64,000 bases of DNA, from contig NZ_CP024636.1 in assembly GCF_009728735.1 (NCBI RefSeq), positions 2,688,659 to 2,752,658 on the forward strand, read 5' to 3'. Under the pieces are notes generated by a model. That model saw only the letters and a program-made list of their open reading frames with translations. It did not search any database and was not told the DNA's origin. Of this stretch, positions 15,723 to 37,872 are shown one piece after another (within the stretch, counting starts at the first letter, position 1; each line of letters starts with the position of its first letter). A program made the position numbers and the translations under genes. Origin of the DNA: Pantoea phytobeneficialis. Lineage in GTDB: Bacteria; Pseudomonadota; Gammaproteobacteria; Enterobacterales; Enterobacteriaceae.

Positions 15723-16574
15723 ATGAGTGCAAAAACGGCATCACTGGAAGGCCGGATTCGTCAGCACTGGGAGCAACTCTCCAGCCACGAACAGCGGCTG
15801 GCCGACGTACTGCTGGCAGCCCCAGGCCAGCTCGCCATGAATACCGCCACTGAACTGGCGCACAGCGCCGGGGTTTCCAAAGCCACCACCACGCGTTTTT
15901 TCCGCCACCTCGGTTATGAAAGCTACGAAGCCGCTCGCCGTCAGGCGCGTGATATGCAGAGCAGCGGTTCACCGCTTTATCTGCAAGCCGCACCCAGCGC
16001 TTCACCGCTCGACAGCATCATGCAGCAACATCTGGAAAAAGAGATCGCCAATCTGGTGAACAGCTATCGCACGCTGGAGAGCAGCCAGTTGCAGGATGCG
16101 GTCAGCGCCATCGCCCGCGCACGGCGCGTGGTGGTGATGGGCTGGCGTCATAGCCAGACCATTGCGCAACTGATCTATCGCGATCTGATCCACGTTCACC
16201 CCGATATACGCCTGCTGCCTCGCCCCGGCGATTCGCTGGCGGAGCATCTGGCATCACTGAATGAACAGGATGTGGTGATTTGCGTTGGCCTGCGTCGTCG
16301 TATGCCAGCGTTAGAGGCCGCGATGAATGCGTTGGCCGAGCGCCAGGTACCGATGCTGTATCTGGCCGATGTGCTGTCCGGCAAACCGGCCCGCCATGCG
16401 CAATGGGTGGTACGCTGCCACACCGACAGTAGCCTGATTTTTGACAGCACCGCTGCACTCTCCGGCATCTGCAACTTGCTGTGCTCCCTGGTGGCGCGCG
16501 AGATGGGCAAAGCCAGCAACGATTACCTCGCCCAGGTTGAAGCGCTGCACCAATCCCTAGACGAACTCGAATAA
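15723..16574 (+). CDS. RpiR/MurR-family transcriptional regulator
   Basis: This 283-residue protein has an N-terminal HTH_6 domain (about residues 1-77; NTATELAHSAGVSKATTTRFFRHLGY is the helix-turn-helix) and a C-terminal SIS domain (about 120-260), the sugar-phosphate-type ligand fold of RpiR/MurR regulators. It lies immediately upstream of, and in the same direction as, the transport and DUF1989 genes. A perfect 18-bp palindrome sits in the 241-bp gap before the next gene, so it probably controls that operon. The SIS-domain ligand is unknown and need not be a sugar phosphate in this context. A GATCCACC sequence and weak AGGGA precede ATG 15723. Confidence 0.85.
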   Translation: MSAKTASLEGRIRQHWEQLSSHEQRLADVLLAAPGQLAMNTATELAHSAGVSKATTTRFFRHLGYESYEAARRQARDMQSSGSPLYLQAAPSASPLDSIMQQHLEKEIANLVNSYRTLESSQLQDAVSAIARARRVVVMGWRHSQTIAQLIYRDLIHVHPDIRLLPRPGDSLAEHLASLNEQDVVICVGLRRRMPALEAAMNALAERQVPMLYLADVLSGKPARHAQWVVRCHTDSSLIFDSTAALSGICNLLCSLVAREMGKASNDYLAQVEALHQSLDELE

Positions 16575-16679
16575 CGCCCCGCGCTGGCGCATATTGCACC
16601 CGCCATTGCACCGAAATGGTGCGCTGGCGGGCATCCCTGTTTCCAATGTATGAAATCACAGAAACGACAAATATGAACT

Positions 16680-16697
16680 AAGAAACAAATGTTTCTT
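16680..16697. promoter_or_regulatory. Perfect 18-bp palindrome, likely RpiR-type operator
   Basis: AAGAAACA and TGTTTCTT, separated by AA, form a perfect inverted repeat 119 bp upstream of the solute-binding protein start and 106 bp after the regulator gene. It is not followed by a U-run and is too AT-rich to be a terminator. A dimeric regulator such as the adjacent RpiR protein would be expected to bind it. Binding is inferred. Confidence 0.55.
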
Positions 16698-16815
16698 TAT
16701 GATTGTACAGGGAAAAATGATATCCCCGACCCTGGTATGCGTGGTGTGTGAAAAATCTGGCACAAAATATGCTCAGAAGAAAAAGACATTTCACCAACAC
16801 CAGGGAAACACCATA

Positions 16816-17652
16816 ATGAAAAAAACCGCTTGGCTCATCGCCGCACTTTTATCTGTTGGATCGCTGGCACAGGCGCAAGCCGATACGCTGGCCGATATCA
16901 AAAGCAGCGGCAAAATCACCGTCGGTATCGACCCGACATTTCCTCCGTATGAGTACACCGACGACAGCGGCGCGATCACTGGCTACAGCGTGGCGATCAT
17001 GCAATCCTTCGCCAAAGATCTCGGCGTGAAACTGGAGTTTCAGAAAACCGCCTTCAGCGGCATTTTGCCGGGCCTGATTTCCGGCTCGTTTAACGCCGAA
17101 GGTTCCTCCCTCAACGTCACCGCCGAACGGGCGAAAAAAGTGCTGTTCACCGTGCCTTACAGCAAAACCGTCAACGGTGTGCTGGTGCGCGAAGATGAAG
17201 CCAAAACCTTTAGCGGCAAAACCCTCAGCCCGGAAAGTCTGTCCGGCCTGCGCGGTGCCGTGAAAAGCGCCAGCGTGCCAGAACAATTGTTGAAAGGCTT
17301 TAACGACGAACTGAAAAAAGCCGGTAAGAAACCGATCACCATCATCAGCGTCGATTCGCTGGATCAAACCGTCAGCACCCTGATGACCAAACGCGCGGAT
17401 TTCGTCTACGACGATATCTCCGTGCTGGCGCCGGTGGTGAAGAAGTACCCGAGCAAAGTGGCGCAGGTCGGAGAAGTCGGTCCGTCACAATGGATGGGTT
17501 GGGCAACGCGTAAAGAAGACGGCAGCCTGAACAAAGCCCTGAGCGACCACATTCTGGCGATGCAGAAAGATGGCGAGCTGACCAGGCTGCAACAGCAGTA
17601 TCTCGGCACCACCTTTACCGTTCCGGCCAGCGATTTCATTCCCCAGGAGTAA
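16816..17652 (+). CDS. Periplasmic solute-binding protein, polar amino acid type (family 3)
   Basis: The 278-residue precursor has a Sec signal peptide (MKKTAWLIAALLSVGSLAQAQA) and a mature PBPb/SBP_bac_3 fold starting TLADIKSSGKITVGIDPTFPPYEY, the hallmark of ABC transporters for polar amino acids and related cations. The Asp/Glu-lined site expected for positively charged ligands cannot be judged from sequence alone. ATG 16816 restores the signal peptide; the ORF extends upstream to 16699 without similarity. It is followed after 2 bp by a DUF1989 gene and, further on, by two matching permeases. Confidence 0.9.
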   Translation: MKKTAWLIAALLSVGSLAQAQADTLADIKSSGKITVGIDPTFPPYEYTDDSGAITGYSVAIMQSFAKDLGVKLEFQKTAFSGILPGLISGSFNAEGSSLNVTAERAKKVLFTVPYSKTVNGVLVREDEAKTFSGKTLSPESLSGLRGAVKSASVPEQLLKGFNDELKKAGKKPITIISVDSLDQTVSTLMTKRADFVYDDISVLAPVVKKYPSKVAQVGEVGPSQWMGWATRKEDGSLNKALSDHILAMQKDGELTRLQQQYLGTTFTVPASDFIPQE

Positions 17653-17654
17653 TT

Positions 17655-18287
17655 ATGTGTCAGTCAACCCTGACGGTCCCGGCGGGCCACGGCAAAACCT
17701 TCCGTGTGCGCAAAGGGCAGTTTATTACCGTCATTGATAGCGAAGGGCAGCAGGCCGCGGATTTTGTCGCGGTCAATGCCGACGACCTGAACGAAAAGCT
17801 GTCGCCGGTCCATACCCGTCAGCATCTGCGTTCGCTGTTTTTCAAACCGGGTGATGCGTTGTGGTCGAGCGAGAACCGTCCCCTGTTGCGCATCGTTGCC
17901 GACACCATCGGCATTCACGATGCCAACGTGCCGGCCTGCGATCGCACCCGCTTCAGCGTGGATTTCGGCGTCGAAGGTCATCGCAACTGCGTGGATAATC
18001 TGCTGGAAGGCATGAAGGCCTATGGCGTGACCTATTTCAGCCTGCCGGAGCCGTTCAACCTGTTCCAGAACGGTCCGGTCACTGCCGATGGCCGTATGGA
18101 GGTGACTGACCCCCACAGCAAAGCGGGCGACAGCATCACCTTTGAAGCACTGTGCGACCTGATTTGCTCCGTCTCTTCCTGCCCGCAGGACATCATTCCG
18201 GGCAATGGTTTACAGGTGACGCCCATCGATATTCGCGTCAGCGATCACTACCACGCCGAGGAGAAGTCGCATGCTGTTAATGCGTGA
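17655..18287 (+). CDS. DUF1989 protein, copy A (carboxyguanidine deiminase-like)
   Basis: This 210-residue protein belongs to DUF1989, long labelled 'urea carboxylase-associated' and later shown for some members to form carboxyguanidine deiminase. The likely metal/active-site residues are present: His88, Cys95 in PACDRTRF, His109 and Cys112 in GHRNCVDN, and Cys176 in SSCPQDI. It starts 2 bp after the binding protein and overlaps copy B by 17 bp, so translation is coupled. No guanidine carboxylase or allophanate hydrolase gene lies nearby, so the true substrate is open. Confidence 0.85.
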   Translation: MCQSTLTVPAGHGKTFRVRKGQFITVIDSEGQQAADFVAVNADDLNEKLSPVHTRQHLRSLFFKPGDALWSSENRPLLRIVADTIGIHDANVPACDRTRFSVDFGVEGHRNCVDNLLEGMKAYGVTYFSLPEPFNLFQNGPVTADGRMEVTDPHSKAGDSITFEALCDLICSVSSCPQDIIPGNGLQVTPIDIRVSDHYHAEEKSHAVNA

Positions 18288-18918
18288 GAGTTATGAAGAA
18301 ACCGCGGTGCGCACCCTCGCAGCACCGATTGAGGTCACCGCGGGAGGTGTAGCATCGATTCGTGTGCTGCGTGGTCAACTGCTGCGTATCACCGCGCTGG
18401 GCGAAGGGGCGGTCGCGTCGTTGTTCGGTTTTAGCCTGCAAGACCCGGCGGTGTGGCTGTCGGTGCATCATACCCGCGTATTCAGCAACAGCTACCTGTT
18501 GGGTTCCGGGATGCGCCTGGTCAACAACCGTCGTCGTCCGATGATGGTGTTGGGCAAAGATAGCGTCAAACGTCACGACCTGCTGCTGCCCGGTTCCACT
18601 ACGGCGTTTCTGGCAGAGCGAGGCTACGGCGGCGAAGGCTGTATCGAAGCGGTCAGCGGCGAACTGGCTCGTCTGGGCATGACGGTGCCGAAACTGCCGG
18701 ACCCGATCAACCTGTTTATGCATGTCAAACTGACGCGTGAAGGCGACATCCTGCCGGAACAAAACCTTACCCAGCCAGGTGACAGCATTACCTGTCGCGT
18801 GGTGATGGACACGCGTTTCATCGTTTCCGCCTGCAATACCGGCATCGAGGGGAATGACAAGCCCGCACCGCTGCGGTTGTCAGTGGCGGAAAACCTGACG
18901 GATTTTAACGCGGAGTAA
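18271..18918 (+). CDS. DUF1989 protein, copy B (degenerate active site)
   Basis: This 215-residue DUF1989 paralogue aligns with copy A from the beta-strand VLRGQLLRITALG through PDPINLFMHV. Residues shared by copies A and C are changed: Ser109 replaces the Cys of the PACD motif, the HRNC motif reads GEGC (His lost, Cys124 kept), and CPQD reads CNTG. It is therefore likely a non-catalytic partner, comparable to the two-subunit arrangement reported for carboxyguanidine deiminase. ATG 18271 lies inside copy A; a second ATG at 18280 is also possible. The first permease follows after 3 bp. Confidence 0.8.
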   Translation: MLLMRESYEETAVRTLAAPIEVTAGGVASIRVLRGQLLRITALGEGAVASLFGFSLQDPAVWLSVHHTRVFSNSYLLGSGMRLVNNRRRPMMVLGKDSVKRHDLLLPGSTTAFLAERGYGGEGCIEAVSGELARLGMTVPKLPDPINLFMHVKLTREGDILPEQNLTQPGDSITCRVVMDTRFIVSACNTGIEGNDKPAPLRLSVAENLTDFNAE

Positions 18919-18921
18919 GCA

Positions 18922-19572
18922 ATGGGGCTGGATCAACAGGTAATAGCCGCGCTGCCGGAACTGGGGCACGGTCTGCTGATGACGCTGGTGCTGACGGTAC
19001 TGGCGTCAATGGTGAGCGTAGTGATGGGGCAGCTTGGCTGTTTCCTGCAACTGCGCCGTGCCTGGATCTGGCGCTTTATTGGCCGTCTCTACGTGAGCAT
19101 GATGCGTGGCACCCCGGCCATTGTTCAGCTGTTTGTGGTGTTTTTTACTCTACCGCGCCTGGGGCTGGGTGGTCAGCCGATGCTTGCAGCTGTGGTGGCG
19201 ATTGGTCTGAACAGTGGTGCGTACGTGGCGGAAATTCTGCGCGTTAACCGCAGTCTGGTGACGCGCGGTCAGTTGGAGGCCGCCCGGACGTTGGGGTTAA
19301 GCCGCGCGCTGACCTGGTGGTATGTCATCAATCCCCAGGTCATGCGCGCCAGCCTGCCAATGCTGGTGAATGAATTCACCATTTTGCTGAAAACCACTCC
19401 ACTGGCCTCGGTGGTGGCGCTGACGGAGTTGACCTATGCCGGTCAGATCGTTATCGCCCGCACTTATGATGCGACTCAGGTGTTGTTGCTGGTGGCAGCG
19501 GGGTATCTGTTAATTGCCTTGCCGCTGATTAGCGCGGCACGGCGGCTGGAAGCGAAACGGAGGCTGGCATAA
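18922..19572 (+). CDS. ABC transporter permease, HisM/GlnP type (1)
   Basis: This 216-residue membrane protein has about five transmembrane segments and the cytoplasmic EAA loop GQLEAARTLGLSRALTWW that docks on the ATPase. It belongs to the polar amino acid permease family (HisM/HisQ). Its start is 3 bp after copy B and its stop overlaps the start of the second permease by one base (TAATG), so the two form a heterodimeric channel. The expected ATP-binding subunit is not encoded in this operon or anywhere in the window. Confidence 0.9.
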   Translation: MGLDQQVIAALPELGHGLLMTLVLTVLASMVSVVMGQLGCFLQLRRAWIWRFIGRLYVSMMRGTPAIVQLFVVFFTLPRLGLGGQPMLAAVVAIGLNSGAYVAEILRVNRSLVTRGQLEAARTLGLSRALTWWYVINPQVMRASLPMLVNEFTILLKTTPLASVVALTELTYAGQIVIARTYDATQVLLLVAAGYLLIALPLISAARRLEAKRRLA

Positions 19573-20237
19573 TGGATTGGCAGGCGATTGCGACCTCATT
19601 GCCGTCGTTAGGTGACGGCCTGATTGCCACCCTGCAACTGTGTGCGGTGGCGGCCCTCTGTTCCTTACTGTGGGGCGGATTGATGGCGTGGATGCTGATG
19701 CGCGCCTCGCCGTTCTGGCTAAAAATTCTCAACCTCTACAGCGGGTTAACCCTGGCGCTGCCCTTGCTGGTGGTGATCTATCTGCTCTATTTCGTGCTGC
19801 CGGAGTATGACATCACCCTCTCTTCACCGGTAGTTGGGGTGCTGGCGTTAACGCTCTATTACGCGCCTTACATCGCGCAGGTCATCCGCGCCGCGATTGC
19901 CGCGCTGCCGCAAGGCCAGTGGGAGGCGTGCCGCGTACTCGGTCTTAGCCGCAGCGAGCAACTGCGTGATGTGGTACTGCCGCAGACGCTGCCGCAAATG
20001 TTATCGCCGCTGGTCGGGTTAACCATTGGTTTGATTAAAGACTCTGCGCTCTTATCGATTGTTTCGGTGCAGGAGTTTATGTACGCCGCCAAACAGGCGA
20101 TTTCTGATACCTACGCGCCGCTGGAGATCTACCTGACGGTAGCACTCTGCTACTGGCTGCTGAACAGCTTGATTGACTGGCTGGCGCGTTGTCTTGAATC
20201 CCGCATGACGCGCTATCGTCGCGGCTTGCAGCATTAA
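19572..20237 (+). CDS. ABC transporter permease, HisM/GlnP type (2)
   Basis: This 221-residue partner permease has the EAA loop GQWEACRVLGLSRSEQLRD and the family segment GLIKDSALLSIVSVQE. It is translationally coupled to permease 1. With the family 3 binding protein at 16816 it makes an importer that lacks only its ATPase; either an ATPase elsewhere in the genome is shared or the system is incomplete. Copy C of DUF1989 follows after 13 bp, with GGAGAA as its ribosome-binding site. Confidence 0.9.
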   Translation: MDWQAIATSLPSLGDGLIATLQLCAVAALCSLLWGGLMAWMLMRASPFWLKILNLYSGLTLALPLLVVIYLLYFVLPEYDITLSSPVVGVLALTLYYAPYIAQVIRAAIAALPQGQWEACRVLGLSRSEQLRDVVLPQTLPQMLSPLVGLTIGLIKDSALLSIVSVQEFMYAAKQAISDTYAPLEIYLTVALCYWLLNSLIDWLARCLESRMTRYRRGLQH

Positions 20238-20250
20238 TCTGGAGAACAAC

Positions 20251-20919
20251 ATGTCAGCTGAATTTCAGCAACGCGCTATCGTCACTATCCCGGCGCGCTA
20301 CGGTAAAGCCGTTCGTCTCAACAAGGGCGAAGCGGTACAGGTGATCAACCTGCACGGCACCCAGGTGGTGGATTGCTGGGCTTATAACGCGGAAGACGTG
20401 AGCGAGTATATGTGTATGGAGGCGACGCGTGTCTGGAACCAGCGCCTCAACCCAAAGGTGGGCGATAGCTTTATCACCAGCCAGCGCCACCCGATTCTGA
20501 CGCTGGTGGCTGACACCTCGCCAGGCGTGCACGACACCTTTATGGCTGCCTGTGATGCCCGCCGTTATGAACTGCTGGGCTGCACCGAACCACACCGCAA
20601 CTGTCACGATAACCTGCATGAAGGGCTGGCAGAGCTGGGGGTGACACTGCCGCACGGCAATCTGGCGTCGTTCAATATCTTTATGAATATTCAGGTACAA
20701 CCTGATGGCATCACCCTGAAGACGCTACCGGTGGTGACCAAACCGGGCGATTACATTGTGCTGCGCGCCGAAATGGATTGTTTTGTGGCGTTCTCGGCCT
20801 GCCCGCAGGATATCGTCAGTATTCAGGGGCAGGGCGATAACACGCCGCGCGACGCGGAGTTGCGCATTCTGACCAGCGGTTTCCCGCAGGTGAAATTACA
20901 GGGGCCGTGGGTGCCCTGA
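20251..20919 (+). CDS. DUF1989 protein, copy C (carboxyguanidine deiminase-like)
   Basis: This 222-residue DUF1989 protein keeps the full motif set: His94, Cys101 in AACDARRY, His115 and Cys118 in PHRNCHDN, and Cys184 in SACPQDI. It also keeps the GxxVVDCW strand near the N-terminus. It is the last gene of the operon and is closer in length and motifs to stand-alone DUF1989 proteins than copy B. Having two motif-intact copies with one degenerate copy is unusual and suggests two reactions or two complexes. Confidence 0.85.
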   Translation: MSAEFQQRAIVTIPARYGKAVRLNKGEAVQVINLHGTQVVDCWAYNAEDVSEYMCMEATRVWNQRLNPKVGDSFITSQRHPILTLVADTSPGVHDTFMAACDARRYELLGCTEPHRNCHDNLHEGLAELGVTLPHGNLASFNIFMNIQVQPDGITLKTLPVVTKPGDYIVLRAEMDCFVAFSACPQDIVSIQGQGDNTPRDAELRILTSGFPQVKLQGPWVP

Positions 20920-21027
20920 CCCTCACCCTAACCCTCTCCCGCCAGCGGGAGAGGGGACTGCATTGTGCACGGTTTACTATATTGCACATCTCCCTCTCCC
21001 TCATGGGAGAGGGACGGGGTGAGGGTA
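20920..21027. repeat. CCCTCTCCC/GGGAGAGGG repeat doublet
   Basis: Two palindromic units of the same type as 6868-6907 in opposite orientation (20921-20956 and about 20989-21027): ACCCTCTCCCGCCAGCGGGA and CTCCCTCTCCCTCATGGGAG. They fill the space between the convergent DUF1989 copy C and the protease gene. Confidence 0.75.
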
Positions 21028-21047
21028 ACAGGCCGCACTTCACGACT

Positions 21048-21674
21048 TTACGACTTCATCACCCCATCCAGCCACTTCTGGAAGCGTCCATAAGGCACGT
21101 ACAGCGCCACATCCTTATACAACGTCTTCCCACTGTGGTTGTCGTTAATCCGGCTACTGTAGCCCACGATAACCCCGGCCAGGGTATTGTCGCTGGCGTT
21201 GTACACCGCACCGCCAGACATGCCTTTCACCACGCCAGCATTGGCGGCAACCACCACGCAACTGGCTTTATTCCAGTCATTTACCAGCGTGGTATTGATC
21301 AGATTCTGCCCGTTGGACGCCACCGGCAGCGCGGTAATAAAGCTGTAGCCGTAGAGATTGACGTCGTCGCCAATCCGGCCATTGCGAAAATGCGGAGGCA
21401 AATTCGCCTCATCATTTTTGTGATATACCACGGCGAGATCGCATTCCGGGTGCCATGCCTTCACCCGATACAATGAATATTTCGCCACATGGGCAGCCGT
21501 CAGGCTGTACTCAGGGGTGAGCGGGATAACGCTGCCCAGCGAACCGACACCCAGCACTGTCGGGATACCGGTGAAGGTCATATCGACCCGTTTTTCTGCT
21601 TCTTTACTGTACTCGTAGTGTCCGACAGAACAGCCACTCAGGCAGCCGATCGTTAAGGCCATGAGCCATCGCAT
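21048..21674 (-). CDS. Trypsin-like serine protease lipoprotein
   Basis: The 208-residue precursor begins MRWLMALTIGCLSGC; LSGC with Cys15 is a plausible lipobox, so the protein is probably anchored to a membrane facing the periplasm. The rest has a chymotrypsin-fold triad: His62 in LTAAHVAK, Asp79 in ECDLAVVY and Ser153 in GMSGGAVY. There is no PDZ domain, so it is not a DegP/DegS type. Its substrate is unknown. It stands alone between the DUF1989 operon and an MFS exporter. Purely from sequence, activity is likely because the triad is complete. Confidence 0.8.
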   Translation of the reverse strand: MRWLMALTIGCLSGCSVGHYEYSKEAEKRVDMTFTGIPTVLGVGSLGSVIPLTPEYSLTAAHVAKYSLYRVKAWHPECDLAVVYHKNDEANLPPHFRNGRIGDDVNLYGYSFITALPVASNGQNLINTTLVNDWNKASCVVVAANAGVVKGMSGGAVYNASDNTLAGVIVGYSSRINDNHSGKTLYKDVALYVPYGRFQKWLDGVMKS

Positions 21675-33231: not shown

Positions 33232-33393
33232 ATGCCTCCAGTGTTACGGAAATCCCCCAGCGTCGCAACCCGGCAGAATGCCAGCGCTGTCGCAAAAGTG
33301 CGGAAAATCAGACGCTCGCGGCAGGCTTTAGCCCGGCGCAGCCCCTATGTTATGCTGGCGGAACGAATCACACCTGCCTGCCGGACCCTAATC

Positions 33394-35667
33394 ATGAAAA
33401 CACGCGTGCCACATCTGGCGCACTGGGGCGCTTTTACCGCGGTGACGGAAAATGGCCGTCTCACCGGTTGCGAACCGTTCTTCGCCGATGCCGATCCTTC
33501 ACCGATGCTGAATACCATCCCTGAGCTGGTTTATTCGGACAAACGTATTCGCCAGCCGATGGTGCGTCGTTCGTGGCTAAAATCCCGTGAGAACAGCGAT
33601 CGCACGCTGCGTGGTCGCGAAGATTTTGTCGCAGTGGACTGGGACACCGCGCTGGATCTGGTGGCGGAGGAAAATCGCCGGGTGCGCGACCGTTACGGTG
33701 CATCAGGCATTTTTAACGGTTCCTATGGCTGGTCCTCAGCCGGACGCGTAAACCACGCACGCACGCTGATCCGTCGCTTCTATTTTCAGGGCGGCGGCGG
33801 GGTTGACCAGCAGGGCAACTACAGTTGGGGGGCGGCGCAGTTCTTTTTACCTTATGTGATTGGCACTTACATGCCGCTGACCGGCCGAGTCACCGACTGG
33901 CCGGATGTGGTGGAACATGCCGAGATCTTTATCGCCTTTGGTGGCCTGGCGCTGAAAAATGCTCAGGTAGCGTCCGGTGGCGCGGGGCAGCACAGCCTGA
34001 AACCGGCGCTGGAGCAACTGACCGCCAAGGGCACGCCGATCATTAACATCAGCCCGATGCGTGATGACTGCCCGGCGTTCGTCAATGCCGAGTGGATTCC
34101 AATTCGTCCCAATACCGATGTGGCATTGATGCTGGCGCTGGGCTTCGAAATTACCCGGCGTCAGGCGGTGGATGAGGCGTTTCTCGCCAGCCACTGCACC
34201 GGTTGGCCGCAGCTACGCGCCTATCTGCTGGGCGAGAATGATGGTATTGCCAAAACGCCGGAATGGGCCAGCCAGATCACCGGTATCCCAGCCGCGCGCA
34301 TTGCGTTACTGGCGCAACAACTGATTGGCAAACGCAGCTTTATCACCTGTTCTTATTCGGTACAGCGCGCCCATCGCGGTGAACAGCCCTACTGGATGAT
34401 GATTGCGCTGTCGTCGATGCTGGGTCAGCCCGGTTTGCCTGGCGGCGGTTTCTCCTTTGGTCATGGTTCGATGAACAGCGTCGGCAACCCGCGTCAGGAA
34501 GGCCCGGCTCCGCTGATGAGTACCGGACCCAATCCGTCTGGTCTGTCGATTCCGGTGGCGCGCATCAGTGATATGTTGCTCAACCCCGGCCAGCCCTACA
34601 GCTTCCAGGGCGAGACGTTGCATTACCCGGATATCCATCTGGTGCATTGGGCGGGTGGCAACCCGTTCCATCATCATCAGCAACTGAATCGTCTGGTCGA
34701 AGGCTGGCAGCGCCCGGATACCGTGGTGGTGCAGGATATCGTCTGGACGCCAGCGGCGCAGATGGCGGATATCGTGCTACCTGCCACTACCACGCTGGAA
34801 CGCAACGATATTGGCGGCTCCTCGCGTGATCGCTTTGTGCTGGCGATGCATCAGGCGATTAAACCGCAGCATCAGGCGCGCCATGACTTTGATATCTTTG
34901 CCGATTTAGCCGATCGTCTTGGTTATCGCGAGGTGTTCACCGAAGGGCGCAATGAGATGCAATGGATTGAGCATCTCTATCAGCAGTGCGCAGTGGCGCA
35001 TGCGCGCAAAGGGATCCACTTCCCGGAGTTTGGTGAGTTCTGGCAGCGTGGTTTTGTCGAAATCCCGCAGGGAGGCGCGCCTTACGTGTTTATGGATGCG
35101 TTTCGTGCCAACCCGGTGGCGAATCCGATTCAGACCGCCAGCGGCAAAATTGAACTGTTTTGCCAGACCATCGCGGATTACCAACTGGAGGATTTCGCCG
35201 GTCACCCGGAATGGCGTGAGCCGCAGGAGTGGCTGGGGGCAAGACTGAGCGAGCAGTTCCCGCTGCATATGATCTCGATTCAACCCTCCGATCGCCTGCA
35301 CAGCCAGCTCGACGCTACCGCGACAGTGCAGGCCAACAAAACCGCCGGGCGTGAAACCCTGTATATGCATCCGCAGGATGCGGCGGCGCGTGCAATTAAC
35401 GATGGCGACGAGATTGAAGTCAGCAACGCGCGTGGCCGCATGTTGGCAGGCGTGCGTGTAACCGATGGCCTGACACCGGGCGTGGTGATTATCTCGACCG
35501 GGGCCTGGTTTGACCCCGGCTTTGGCCGCGCCTGGCAGCCGTGGGACCGCGCCGGTAACCCGAATGTATTGACGCTGGATATTGGCACTTCGTCGTTAAC
35601 CCAGGGGCCAAACGCCATGAGTTGCCTGGTGGAAATCAAAAAACATGAGGTTTGCACAATCCAGTAA
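33394..35667 (+). CDS. Molybdopterin oxidoreductase, BisC/TorZ-like
   Basis: The 757-residue protein belongs to the DMSO reductase family, type III (BisC, TorZ, DMSO/TMAO reductases), using a bis-MGD cofactor. The expected Mo-ligating Ser is Ser115 in GSYGWSSAGR. Other family blocks are NISPMRDDCPAF, GGGFSFGHG, WAGGNPFHHHQ, LPATTTLERND and the C-terminal ARGRMLAGVRV domain. There is no twin-arginine signal and no Fe-S cysteine motif, so it should be cytoplasmic like BisC, which reduces biotin and methionine sulfoxide. ATG 33394 (MKTRVPHLAHWGAF) fits relatives; the extension to 33232 would overlap the GalR operator. Substrate unproven. Confidence 0.85.
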   Translation: MKTRVPHLAHWGAFTAVTENGRLTGCEPFFADADPSPMLNTIPELVYSDKRIRQPMVRRSWLKSRENSDRTLRGREDFVAVDWDTALDLVAEENRRVRDRYGASGIFNGSYGWSSAGRVNHARTLIRRFYFQGGGGVDQQGNYSWGAAQFFLPYVIGTYMPLTGRVTDWPDVVEHAEIFIAFGGLALKNAQVASGGAGQHSLKPALEQLTAKGTPIINISPMRDDCPAFVNAEWIPIRPNTDVALMLALGFEITRRQAVDEAFLASHCTGWPQLRAYLLGENDGIAKTPEWASQITGIPAARIALLAQQLIGKRSFITCSYSVQRAHRGEQPYWMMIALSSMLGQPGLPGGGFSFGHGSMNSVGNPRQEGPAPLMSTGPNPSGLSIPVARISDMLLNPGQPYSFQGETLHYPDIHLVHWAGGNPFHHHQQLNRLVEGWQRPDTVVVQDIVWTPAAQMADIVLPATTTLERNDIGGSSRDRFVLAMHQAIKPQHQARHDFDIFADLADRLGYREVFTEGRNEMQWIEHLYQQCAVAHARKGIHFPEFGEFWQRGFVEIPQGGAPYVFMDAFRANPVANPIQTASGKIELFCQTIADYQLEDFAGHPEWREPQEWLGARLSEQFPLHMISIQPSDRLHSQLDATATVQANKTAGRETLYMHPQDAAARAINDGDEIEVSNARGRMLAGVRVTDGLTPGVVIISTGAWFDPGFGRAWQPWDRAGNPNVLTLDIGTSSLTQGPNAMSCLVEIKKHEVCTIQ

Positions 35668-35752: not shown

Positions 35753-35828
35753 CCCAGAGGTATTGATGGGTGAACATCAAAAAGTTTTCTTGATTACACC
35801 GACCTGCGCAGATGCGCAGGTTTTTTTT
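35753..35828 (+). ncRNA. omrA: OmrA/OmrB-family small RNA, copy 1
   Basis: The predicted RNA (about 76 nt) begins CCCAGAGGTATTGAT, the conserved 5' seed of E. coli OmrA and OmrB, and ends in CCTGCGCAGATGCGCAGG followed by eight T, the conserved Omr terminator. TACAGT at 35741-35746 is a suitable -10 element. OmrA/B are OmpR-induced, Hfq-dependent RNAs that repress outer-membrane protein, curli and ompR mRNAs. In E. coli both genes sit between aas and galR; this copy lies in that interval. Whether it is the OmrA or OmrB orthologue is undecided. Confidence 0.9.
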
Positions 35829-35938: not shown

Positions 35939-37669
35939 ATGCCCCGAATAAAAAAATTTCTGGGAAAAGACCAGATTCAAGCTCCATTTAATCCCTTTCG
36001 TTTTCGCCTGATCTGTCTGGGTGTGCTCTCCTGTCTGGGCCTGTTGCTGGCACGCGTCGGCGATTTGCAGCTGATTAACCACCCGATGCTGGAACACGAA
36101 GCGGATCAGCGTTCACTGCGTACCGTGACGTTGCCGACTAACCGTGGCACCTTACTCGACCGCGATGGTGAAGCGCTGGCACTGAGCGTGCCATCGCGCG
36201 ACATCATCGCTGACCCGATGCGGGTGCTGGAGAGTAACCCGGACTTTACCAGCGCCAAATGGGCCTACCTGGCGAATGCGCTGAATATGCGCCCGGACCA
36301 ACTGGCGCAGCAGATTGTGGCCAACCCGAAAAAACGCTTCCTCTATCTCGGGCGAAAAATTGAACTGAGTATCGCCAAAGATATTGCCGCGCTGCGCCTG
36401 AAAGGCATCAGCTCGGTGTATGACGACAGTCGTTTCTACCCGATGAGTGAAGCCGCAGCACCGTTGATTGGTATCGTTGGCGCGGATAACAACGGTCTGA
36501 ACGGCCTGGAAAAAGGCTTTGATCGCCTGTTACATGGCGAAGAGGGTAAAGAGGTTTATCGCCAGGATAAAAATGGCGACATCATCTCGATGATTGATTA
36601 CCAACCACCGCAGCAGCCGCCGACGGTGCAACTGAGTATCGACAAATTTGACCAGTACACGCTGTTTAGCAAGTTGCGCGATGGCGTGTTGCTCAACAAG
36701 GCCGATTCCGGTGCTGCGGTGTTGGTGAAAATCGATACCGGGGAAATTCTGGCGATGGCCTCCTATCCGTCGTTCAACCCCAACAACTATGACGATGCTA
36801 CCCCGGCGCAGATGCGTAACTCGGCGATTAACGACAGTTACGAACCCGGTTCCACCGTGAAGCCGTTGGTGGTGCTGGAAGGTCTGGAGCGTCATCTGGT
36901 GCGCCCTGACTCGGTGATTGATACCTCGCCTTATTCGGTCAACGGCCATCTGATCCGCGACGTCGGCCACTGGCCGCGTCTGACCATGACCGGGATTTTG
37001 CAGAAATCGAGTGATATCGGTGTTTCCCATATCGCGCTGGCGATGCCTGCGGAAGCGCTGGTCAATACCTATCAGGCCTTTGGCCTCGGTAAACCTACCG
37101 GGCTGGGGCTGACCGGTGAAAGTGTCGGTTACTTCCCGCTGCATCGTGAACGTTGGGCGGATATTGAACGCGCCACCTTTGCCTTCGGCTACGGCCTGCG
37201 CGTTACGCCACTGCAAATTGCGCGTGAATACGCCACTCTCGGCTCCTATGGCATCTACCGACCGTTATCAATAACCAAGGTGACGCCGCCAGTGTTGGGC
37301 ACCCAGGTGGCCGATGCACAAATGGTACAAACCGTGGTGCATATGCTGGAGAGCGACGTCCTGCCGGGCGGCACCGGGGTGAAAGCGGCGGTGCCGGGCT
37401 ATCGCCTGGCGACCAAAACCGGTACCGCAGAGAAAATGGGTAGCAGCGGCAAGTACGATGGCGGTTACGTCAACTACACCGCCGGCATTGCGCCTGCCAG
37501 CCATCCTGAAGTAGCGCTGGTGGTGATGATCAACCATCCAACCGCCGGGGATCACTTTGGTGGTTCGGTAGCCGCACCGGTATTCGGCAACATTATGGGG
37601 CCGGTGCTGAAGCATATGAACATTGCGCCGGATGCGATCTACAGTAAACCGACACCAGATAAATCTTAA
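35939..37669 (+). CDS. FtsI/PBP3 paralogue (class B penicillin-binding protein)
   Basis: This 576-residue protein has one N-terminal membrane segment (about 22-40), a pedestal domain and a transpeptidase domain with Ser305-Thr-Val-Lys308 (acylation site) and Lys493-Thr-Gly495. The SxN motif reads Ser357-Ser-Asp359 where FtsI has Ser-Ser-Asn. It is colinear with E. coli FtsI but lacks its C-terminal processed tail. It is far from the dcw cluster, so it is an extra copy, comparable to Salmonella PBP3-SAL, which serves division at acidic pH. The ribosome-binding site before ATG 35939 is weak. It lies between two Omr-type RNA genes. Confidence 0.9.
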   Translation: MPRIKKFLGKDQIQAPFNPFRFRLICLGVLSCLGLLLARVGDLQLINHPMLEHEADQRSLRTVTLPTNRGTLLDRDGEALALSVPSRDIIADPMRVLESNPDFTSAKWAYLANALNMRPDQLAQQIVANPKKRFLYLGRKIELSIAKDIAALRLKGISSVYDDSRFYPMSEAAAPLIGIVGADNNGLNGLEKGFDRLLHGEEGKEVYRQDKNGDIISMIDYQPPQQPPTVQLSIDKFDQYTLFSKLRDGVLLNKADSGAAVLVKIDTGEILAMASYPSFNPNNYDDATPAQMRNSAINDSYEPGSTVKPLVVLEGLERHLVRPDSVIDTSPYSVNGHLIRDVGHWPRLTMTGILQKSSDIGVSHIALAMPAEALVNTYQAFGLGKPTGLGLTGESVGYFPLHRERWADIERATFAFGYGLRVTPLQIAREYATLGSYGIYRPLSITKVTPPVLGTQVADAQMVQTVVHMLESDVLPGGTGVKAAVPGYRLATKTGTAEKMGSSGKYDGGYVNYTAGIAPASHPEVALVVMINHPTAGDHFGGSVAAPVFGNIMGPVLKHMNIAPDAIYSKPTPDKS

Positions 37670-37781: not shown

Positions 37782-37872
37782 CCCAGAGGTATTGATTGGT
37801 GTGAAGAATGGCAGCCGATGCTGCTCACCCTGTTCAGTTGCACCGACCCACGCAGATGCGTGGGTTTTTTTT
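37782..37872 (+). ncRNA. omrB: OmrA/OmrB-family small RNA, copy 2
   Basis: The predicted RNA (about 91 nt) begins CCCAGAGGTATTGATTGGTG, matching the first 20 bases of E. coli OmrA, has a variable middle, and ends in CCCACGCAGATGCGTGGG followed by eight T. The terminator stem has compensating changes relative to copy 1 (CCTGCGC/GCGCAGG versus CCCACGC/GCGTGGG), good evidence for a conserved structure. It lies 112 bp after the FtsI paralogue. Symbol is by position and is tentative. Confidence 0.9.

Follow-up and report, generated by a model that had tools for sequence, protein, structure and literature searches.

Gene organization of the locus

We analyzed a stretch of 64,000 nucleotides of Pantoea phytobeneficialis (hereafter, the window; contig NZ_CP024636.1, positions 2,688,659 to 2,752,658, from a genome of 5.7 Mb in five contigs), focusing on an operon that brings together three genes for DUF1989 proteins and the genes of an ATP-binding cassette (ABC) importer. 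The seven genes described in a first-pass annotation made from the DNA sequence alone were all confirmed as open reading frames (ORFs) of the + strand by the ORF list and by Pfam, with scores above the cut-offs for HTH_6 plus SIS (one protein), SBP_bac_3 (one), DUF1989 (three), and BPD_transp_1 (two). The first gene (15723..16574) encodes a regulator of the RpiR/MurR family (HTH_6, 42.6 bits; SIS, 28.7 bits). After a region of approximately 240 bp comes the gene for a family-3 solute-binding protein (SBP) of the polar amino acid type (16816..17652; SBP_bac_3, 116.7 bits), whose start is likely the ATG at 16816, as the beginning of the protein looks like a signal peptide by eye, rather than the mechanical ORF start at 16699. 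This gene is followed by DUF1989 A (17655..18287; 179.3 bits), a putative zinc-type catalytic subunit; DUF1989 B (18271..18918; 110.8 bits), its putative partner with a degenerate zinc site; permease 1 (18922..19572; BPD_transp_1, 54.5 bits); permease 2 (19572..20237; BPD_transp_1, 84.9 bits); and DUF1989 C (20251..20919; 156.5 bits), which may be a second zinc-type enzyme. Both permeases also exceed the cut-off of HEQRo_perm_3TM, and the three DUF1989 proteins are 210–222 amino acids long. From the SBP gene onward the genes are tightly packed, with gaps of 2 bp (SBP–A), 3 bp (B–permease 1), and 13 bp (permease 2–C), and overlaps of 17 bp (A/B) and 1 bp (permease 1/permease 2). No ATPase ORF is present within or beside the operon, as the first-pass annotation had noted.

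Conservation of the operon

A single scan of a named genome collection with DUF1989 B gathered 44 loci from Enterobacterales, Vibrio, Pseudomonas, and Burkholderiales (31 gammaproteobacterial and 13 Burkholderiales loci; L043 and L050 belong to the same genome). The order A, B, permease 1, permease 2, C was identical in all 44, which argues that this gene set is not a product of chance and answers the comparison of gene order that had been proposed for this locus. All of them also have the SBP gene, truncated at a contig end in L039, and the RpiR regulator adjoins the operon in 43, the remaining one being L039, which is cut by the same kind of break. In gammaproteobacteria the regulator precedes the operon and has the same orientation; in Burkholderiales it is divergent. 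The operon was also found, in the same order, on a plasmid of the alphaproteobacterium Palleronia, where the regulator is located downstream. The nearest of the 44 loci is that of Pantoea sp. AS-PWVM4; its B protein and that of the window are 100% identical. Permease 2 in L018, the SBP in L020, and permease 1 in L031 appear to be split, possibly by assembly errors.

We estimated the ratio of nonsynonymous to synonymous substitution rates (omega) for the seven genes against four genomes, and 27 of the 28 values fell between 0.035 and 0.13, including those of the permeases; in the 28th (gene B versus L029) the synonymous rate (dS) was undefined. The low omega of the permeases indicates that the importer is maintained by purifying selection. 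When a profile of B was run on 398 Pseudomonadota genomes, two matches were strong, in G000 and in one congener, and another 11 were weaker. A profile of A, run on 385 genomes belonging to the same class as G410, gave 13 matches of 157–165 bits; on these scores we take them to be other DUF1989 proteins and not orthologues of A, and the seven that were fetched were each placed among C-like proteins in the tree. At the sensitivity of megablast, the DNA of the operon had no match in the E. coli collection, and our literature search, which covered open-licence papers, found no published description of it.

A, B, and C are distinct from the carboxyguanidine deiminase subunits

The first-pass annotation had treated DUF1989 proteins as subunits of carboxyguanidine deiminase, which proved too broad: according to PMC12560246, the family also includes trimethylamine N-oxide (TMAO) demethylase, and A, B, and C fall far below the equivalog cut-offs of both deiminase subunits. 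With the NCBIfam UAAP2 model (cut-off 284.7) the scores were 128.7, 56.8, and 84.9 bits for A, B, and C, and with the UAAP1 model (cut-off 205.95) they were 83.4, 54.3, and 50.6 bits; the pair encoded in the guanidine operon of the same genome scored 278.9 (UAAP1) and 326.4 (UAAP2). The TMAO demethylase model (cut-off 1100) gave 159.7, 36.0, and 102.5 bits. We also obtained a tree of 94 DUF1989 rows, in which those of L031, L034, L044, L253, L254, and L256 were thinned (the residue counts given below used the unthinned set). In this tree, A, B, C, CgdA, CgdB, and TMAO demethylase each formed one clade (bootstrap 98–100), with support of 100/99, 100/100, and 100/99 for A, B, and C, respectively. 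CgdA plus CgdB, a clade defined as in PMC11410670, had a support of 100/99 and left A, B, and C outside; the C clade neighbors DUF1989 proteins that include importer-linked ones. The deep branching order was unresolved, with long branches flagged by the program. By the approximately unbiased test (p-AU), a single clade of A, B, and C was rejected (0.005), as were A with CgdB (0.034) and B with CgdA (0.002), and a clade of A and B was not rejected (0.41).

The gene context agrees with this separation. A guanidine operon, with UAAP1, UAAP2, the carboxylase, and guanidine-I and guanidine-II riboswitches, is encoded elsewhere in the host genome, and the carboxylase for which a whole-genome search had been suggested is thereby placed away from this locus. 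As had been claimed, the carboxylase is missing here: a tblastn search with the guanidine carboxylase of the host returned nothing above 60 bits in the window and, over 46 stretches, a match of that strength in only one, at the end of the Herbaspirillum locus L047. Two guanidine riboswitches were detected in the guanidine operon of the host, and none in the window, L050, or the Palleronia stretch (L180). In three of 10 genomes tested, the operon holds the only DUF1989 genes of the genome. These results support the idea of a pathway separate from that of guanidine carboxylase.

Conserved residues of the DUF1989 proteins

Three zinc cysteines are named for TMAO demethylase in PMC12560246. By spacing and alignment, they match C95, C112, and C176, which are present in 16/16 A and 16/16 C domains. 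In B, C95 is replaced by serine in all 16 domains, the second cysteine is kept in 14, and the third in 16. CgdA has lost the first cysteine in 8/8 sequences and has glycine at the second in 8/8; the third is kept in two of the eight. Given that a clade of B with CgdA was rejected, the metal ligands were lost on separate branches in these two proteins. The predicted structure of B (predicted local distance difference test, pLDDT, 84.9) has the DUF1989 fold, and its best matches in the PDB are 3siy/3oru and 3di4. Two arginines, R99 and R110, are invariant in A and C and absent from TMAO demethylase and CgdB; they would fit an acidic, carboxylate-bearing substrate. H109 and D179 are kept in 16/16 A and 16/16 C domains, which, unlike B, hold the whole set of three cysteines plus this pair. 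H109 and D179 are absent from CgdB and correspond to H276 and D346, the second-metal residues proposed in PMC12560246 as iron ligands of TMAO demethylase.

With CgdAB, which is cited in PMC11271267 as an enzyme with an inactive cognate, the operon shares DUF1989 proteins that pair a zinc-type member with a putative zinc-site-degenerate partner, the link to an importer, and a presumed role in nitrogen release. It differs in that its A, B, and C proteins belong to other clades, below the equivalog cut-offs, and in its context, which includes the additional gene C, another class of importer, and neither carboxylase nor riboswitch.

The importer and its missing ATPase

As in the polar-amino-acid-type ABC importers (Art/His/Gln/Tcy/Ehu), a family-3 SBP is combined here with two permeases of the HEQRo class. 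Among 15 aligned SBPs, Arg106 and Asp201 are invariant and Asp200 is nearly so (numbering from base 16813); the arginine and aspartate are the residues that typically hold an alpha-amino acid. A structural model of the SBP (pLDDT 78.8; predicted template modelling score, pTM, 0.65) matches amino-acid-binding proteins generally and names no ligand. The operon departs from these importers in its ATPase: none of the 31 gammaproteobacterial loci has an ATPase gene in the operon, whereas it is located between permease 2 and C in 13/13 Burkholderiales loci and at the same place in Palleronia. The ATPase of L050, the sole Burkholderiales one scanned, is of the cystine/ectoine/histidine/glutamine-importer kind. 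Since the gene is present in Burkholderiales and Palleronia and absent from the gammaproteobacterial operons, it was probably ancestral and then lost in the gammaproteobacterial branch; alternatively, this distribution may reflect a gain plus transfer.

The first-pass annotation had suggested a shared ATPase encoded elsewhere, and a whole-genome search for a lone HisP/GlnQ-type ATPase. In the host genome we found 28 ATPase matches at E <= 1e-40, the best of them 55% identical. Of these, 25 lie within 1.5 kb of a clear match to a permease of the polar-amino-acid type, L144 is clustered with a binding protein and a permease approximately 5 kb away, and L154 and L155 adjoin ORFs that by eye resemble MetI-type permeases. 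None of the 28 looks free of its own permease, and within the range of this search the idea of a lone ATPase was rejected. The Burkholderiales operon ATPase was also compared with 14 gammaproteobacterial genomes: 12 had matches at E <= 1e-78 that were 52–57% identical, and two had none. These identities, set against the 67% and 69% between A and C of L050 and those of the window, reveal no obvious relocated orthologue and, together with the observation that the host ATPases have their own permeases, lead us to infer that the gammaproteobacterial importer borrows the ATPase of another importer, in line with the earlier suggestion. Two further observations concern neighboring importers. In Rouxiella silvae (L031), the operon is immediately preceded by a second importer, which has an ATPase. 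In Palleronia, a second importer adjoins the operon (L180:1-2044), and no ATPase is annotated for it within the sequence examined, which is cut on the upstream side; this importer could share the ATPase of the DUF1989 operon.

Putative regulatory sites upstream of the SBP gene

The region between the regulator and the SBP gene contains an NtrC-like site, TGCACC-N5-GGTGC, at 16607..16622; a palindrome, GAAAC-N4-GTTTC, at 16682..16695; and a sigma-54 promoter-like element on the + strand, TGGCAC-N5-ATGCT, at 16758..16773. Matches to the consensus sequences were counted in 43 loci (L039 has no upstream region); as controls we used 3961 windows drawn at random from these loci, as well as 4300 resampled upstream regions. 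The palindrome was present in 41 of the 43 upstream regions, compared with one of the random windows and two of the resampled upstreams. Sigma-54-like elements matching at least nine of 11 positions were detected in 41 loci, 49–89 bases before the SBP start, compared with 174 and 176 in the respective controls; within the window, 26 of 100 shuffles also had such a match. NtrC-like sites with a score of at least 10 out of 12 were found in 30 loci, compared with 104 random windows and 71 resampled upstreams, and the one at 16607..16622 is the sole match in the window, where 0.03 were expected. The promoter architecture of the NtrC/sigma-54 type is thus conserved above background, from which nitrogen-dependent control of the operon can be predicted, and the palindrome is probably the operator of the RpiR protein. 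In the host genome the palindrome occurs in five places, two of them within the operon, and a reversed-pattern control occurs 19 times per strand; since the palindrome is rarer than this control, we claim no further member of an RpiR regulon. The second copy in the operon, inside the SBP gene, was rejected as an operator, being missing in four of six Rahnella loci.

Genes associated with the operon and with relatives of C

An allantoicase gene directly follows C in 10 of the 44 loci, nine of the 13 from Burkholderiales and one from Pseudomonas; in L041, one of the four Burkholderiales loci without it, the contig ends at C. Both linked allantoicases that were scanned (L050 and L036) reach the equivalog level in NCBIfam, and those of Burkholderiales keep 104 of 130 positions that are invariant in other allantoicases. 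A first, quick tree from which identical sequences were removed (28 left) gave an unclear relation between the Pseudomonas and Burkholderiales proteins and was superseded by a careful one. In the latter, the nine Burkholderiales proteins formed one clade (100/96) beside other allantoicases of this order, and the Pseudomonas protein grouped with two Pseudomonas copies (100/100). A single clade of all 10 was rejected (p-AU 6e-7); the allantoicases linked to the operon therefore come from two lineages, a pattern that would be explained most simply by two separate recruitments. Among 28 genomes tested, allantoicase was present in 10 and AllA in 13, all of them Burkholderiales or Pseudomonas. In the host genome, a search for these two enzymes gave no match to allantoicase or to AllA-type ureidoglycolate lyase.

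The neighborhoods of C-like proteins point in a similar direction. A polar-amino-acid-type importer was found in five of 22 (L170, L171, L177, L213, and L184), and, among the 19 that were blasted, an agmatinase-family gene in five (L170, L171, L177, L206, and L213) and an M20 carbamoylase-like gene in three (L170, L171, and L177); in L184 a Zn-dependent hydrolase is annotated. The clusters at L171:3677-9867 and L177:2586-9161, which contain an importer, a C-like DUF1989 gene, an M20 carbamoylase-like gene, and an agmatinase-family gene, look like operons for the utilization of guanidino compounds. In L171 the order is SBP, two permeases, ATPase, DUF1989, M20, and agmatinase-family; its M20 protein passes the cut-off of the hydantoinase/carbamoylase family, and the product of the last gene passes the NCBIfam agmatinase cut-offs. 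The allantoicase, M20 carbamoylase, and agmatinase families all act on ureido or guanidino groups. The guanidino or ureido compound proposed in the first-pass annotation is thus supported, as a candidate substrate class, by the linked allantoicase and by the presence of M20 carbamoylase-like and agmatinase-family genes in the neighborhood of some C relatives.

Other DUF1989 loci and neighboring features

Two other DUF1989 arrangements were observed. A separate clade adjoins genes for GntA-type heme N-hydroxylases in Deinococcus, Comamonas, and two further genomes (L182:7157-8639, L185:7271-8564, L174, and L178), which suggests that its members act on N-hydroxylated guanidines. In the host genome, L069:8373-12288 contains a single DUF1989 gene (278 amino acids), a GntR-like regulator recognized by eye, a fused permease–ATPase (502 amino acids), and a family-3 SBP; it is another importer-linked DUF1989 operon.

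Just past DUF1989 C, at 20920–21030, a long imperfect inverted repeat of the CCCTCTCCC/GGGAGAGGG type was noticed by eye, possibly a terminator or an element resembling repetitive extragenic palindromic (REP) sequences. It is followed, on the − strand at 21048–21674, by an ORF for a lipoprotein-like protein of 208 amino acids with a trypsin-like GMSGGA stretch (by eye), which had no match in Pfam or NCBIfam and whose cluster is present in 11 of the 44 operon loci. Farther away, two genes of the OmrA/OmrB family of small RNAs are located at 35753–35828 and 37782–37872, approximately 2 kb apart, and the ORF between them (35939–37669) resembles by eye a penicillin-binding protein.

Discussion

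The reading that we favor, with moderate confidence, is that this is a nitrogen-scavenging operon that imports a guanidino- or ureido-carboxylate and hydrolyzes it by means of DUF1989 A/B and C. According to the upstream sites, nitrogen limitation would turn the operon on through NtrC and sigma-54, and the RpiR protein would gate it via the conserved palindrome. The SBP would capture a small carboxylate bearing a cationic or ureido nitrogen group, and the two permeases would import it, powered in gammaproteobacteria by the ATPase of another polar-amino-acid importer. A, with zinc and catalytic activity, and B, with its degenerate zinc site, may form a heteromer built like CgdB/CgdA and evolved separately; C would be a second zinc hydrolase, and A/B and C would jointly cleave guanidino or ureido C–N bonds, releasing nitrogen. 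In some Burkholderiales and one Pseudomonas, the linked allantoicase would convert the product into urea and fragments of the glyoxylate type; in the remaining cases, this step may be spontaneous or performed by other enzymes. A more ambitious version of this reading, which we put forward as a possibility rather than as a probable account, is that the three DUF1989 subfamilies constitute a new enzyme system, with an independently evolved active/degenerate A/B heteromer and a separate zinc enzyme C, that degrades an unrecognized guanidino–ureido acid (e.g., the guanidino analog of allantoate or ureidoglycolate), and whose importer permanently lacks its own ATPase in gammaproteobacteria.

Several observations weigh against a nitrogen-scavenging role of this kind. 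The 43 loci are related, so their site counts overstate independence, yet they span Enterobacterales, Vibrio, Pseudomonas, and Burkholderiales; moreover, the Palleronia upstream region has neither an exact palindrome nor a sigma-54 match, although two one-mismatch palindrome sites lie upstream of its SBP gene (0.38 expected). Both second-metal residues are kept in A and C and could indicate a different chemistry. No allantoicase follows C in 34 of the 44 loci (including L041, where the contig ends), and 18 of the 28 genomes have no allantoicase match at all, so this enzyme is at most an add-on; its linkage may also be a single ancient one, followed by loss in many lineages. The gene associations of the relatives of C were counted without a random-gene control, and the L171 cluster may act on agmatine instead of a guanidino acid, because its agmatinase-family protein passes the agmatinase cut-offs. 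Finally, the ATPase survey reached only matches at E <= 1e-40.

Among other explanations, the substrate could be allantoate or ureidoglycolate itself. The operon would then form a second route for ureides that does without allantoicase, the work of this enzyme and of ureidoglycolate lyase being done by A/B and C. The operon resembles allantoin/allantoate catabolic clusters in the allantoicase that directly follows it in 10 loci, and allantoicases of two lineages are linked to it. The window genome and 14 others (L008–L035: Enterobacterales, one Vibrio, and one Pseudomonas) lack a match to allantoicase or AllA and have the DUF1989 trio instead, so that under this explanation another enzyme is needed. 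Nonetheless, all eight Burkholderiales genomes with a linked allantoicase that were tested carry other allantoicases and AllA elsewhere, and the SBP keeps the arginine and aspartate typical for an alpha-amino acid, which a ureide does not need; we consider this pathway unlikely.

Also quite unlikely, in our view, is a chemistry like that of TMAO demethylase (Tdm), in which A and C would act on an imported amine by breaking an N-methyl, N-oxide, or hemiaminal bond. It is favored by the scores, as A and C match the TMAO model better than UAAP2 (159.7 versus 128.7 and 102.5 versus 84.9 bits), and by the residues, since A and C, unlike B, share with Tdm a DUF1989 domain of the zinc type, with its three cysteines, and the counterparts of H276 and D346. 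In addition, a BisC-family S/N-oxide reductase gene lies beside the Palleronia operon, and the window, eight Pantoea-type loci, and two Rahnella loci have homologues at distances of up to approximately 13 kb from the operon. These genes of the BisC/TorA family, located at 33232–35667 in the window (by similarity) and at L180:4489-6795 and L022:16556-18919 on the − strand (scanned), may be there by coincidence or may hint at N-oxide chemistry; however, the Pantoea-type ones lie in one shared chromosomal neighborhood and count as few events. Moreover, Tdm is one long chain (763-position model) with a GcvT-like domain, whereas the operon encodes three separate domain-sized proteins of 210–222 amino acids with no GcvT domain, the scores are far below the 1100-bit cut-off, and R99 and R110 are absent from the demethylase.

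We regard it as similarly unlikely that the operon encodes an ordinary amino-acid importer to which the DUF1989 proteins are accessory, for instance by detoxifying an amino-acid analog. The class of the importer and the amino-acid-like motif of its SBP agree with this, but the presence of the three DUF1989 genes together in every locus, the linked ureide enzyme, and the nitrogen-control sites fit catabolism better. Finally, a variant or decayed guanidine carboxylase operon retaining the deiminase subunits, of which the first-pass annotation had expected an adjacent ATPase and carboxylase in relatives to be the sign, is highly improbable: an ATPase gene is indeed present in the operon of relatives, and family membership and the urea/guanidine carboxylase at one end of L047 speak for it, but that carboxylase is the only one in 46 stretches, A, B, and C lie outside the CgdA plus CgdB clade, no guanidine riboswitch occurs in the window, the canonical pathway is encoded elsewhere in the host, and purifying selection on the genes is ordinary.

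The nitrogen-scavenging reading offers a testable function for three uncharacterized DUF1989 lineages; many of their members, as seen for gene B, currently carry the name "urea carboxylase-associated". Since B and CgdA lost their zinc ligands on separate branches, our results suggest at least two origins for the pairing of an active with a degenerate subunit in the DUF1989 family. The reading also points to an as yet unrecognized nitrogen compound that these bacteria may scavenge, and the operon is a clear example of an ABC importer that has been conserved while lacking its ATPase.

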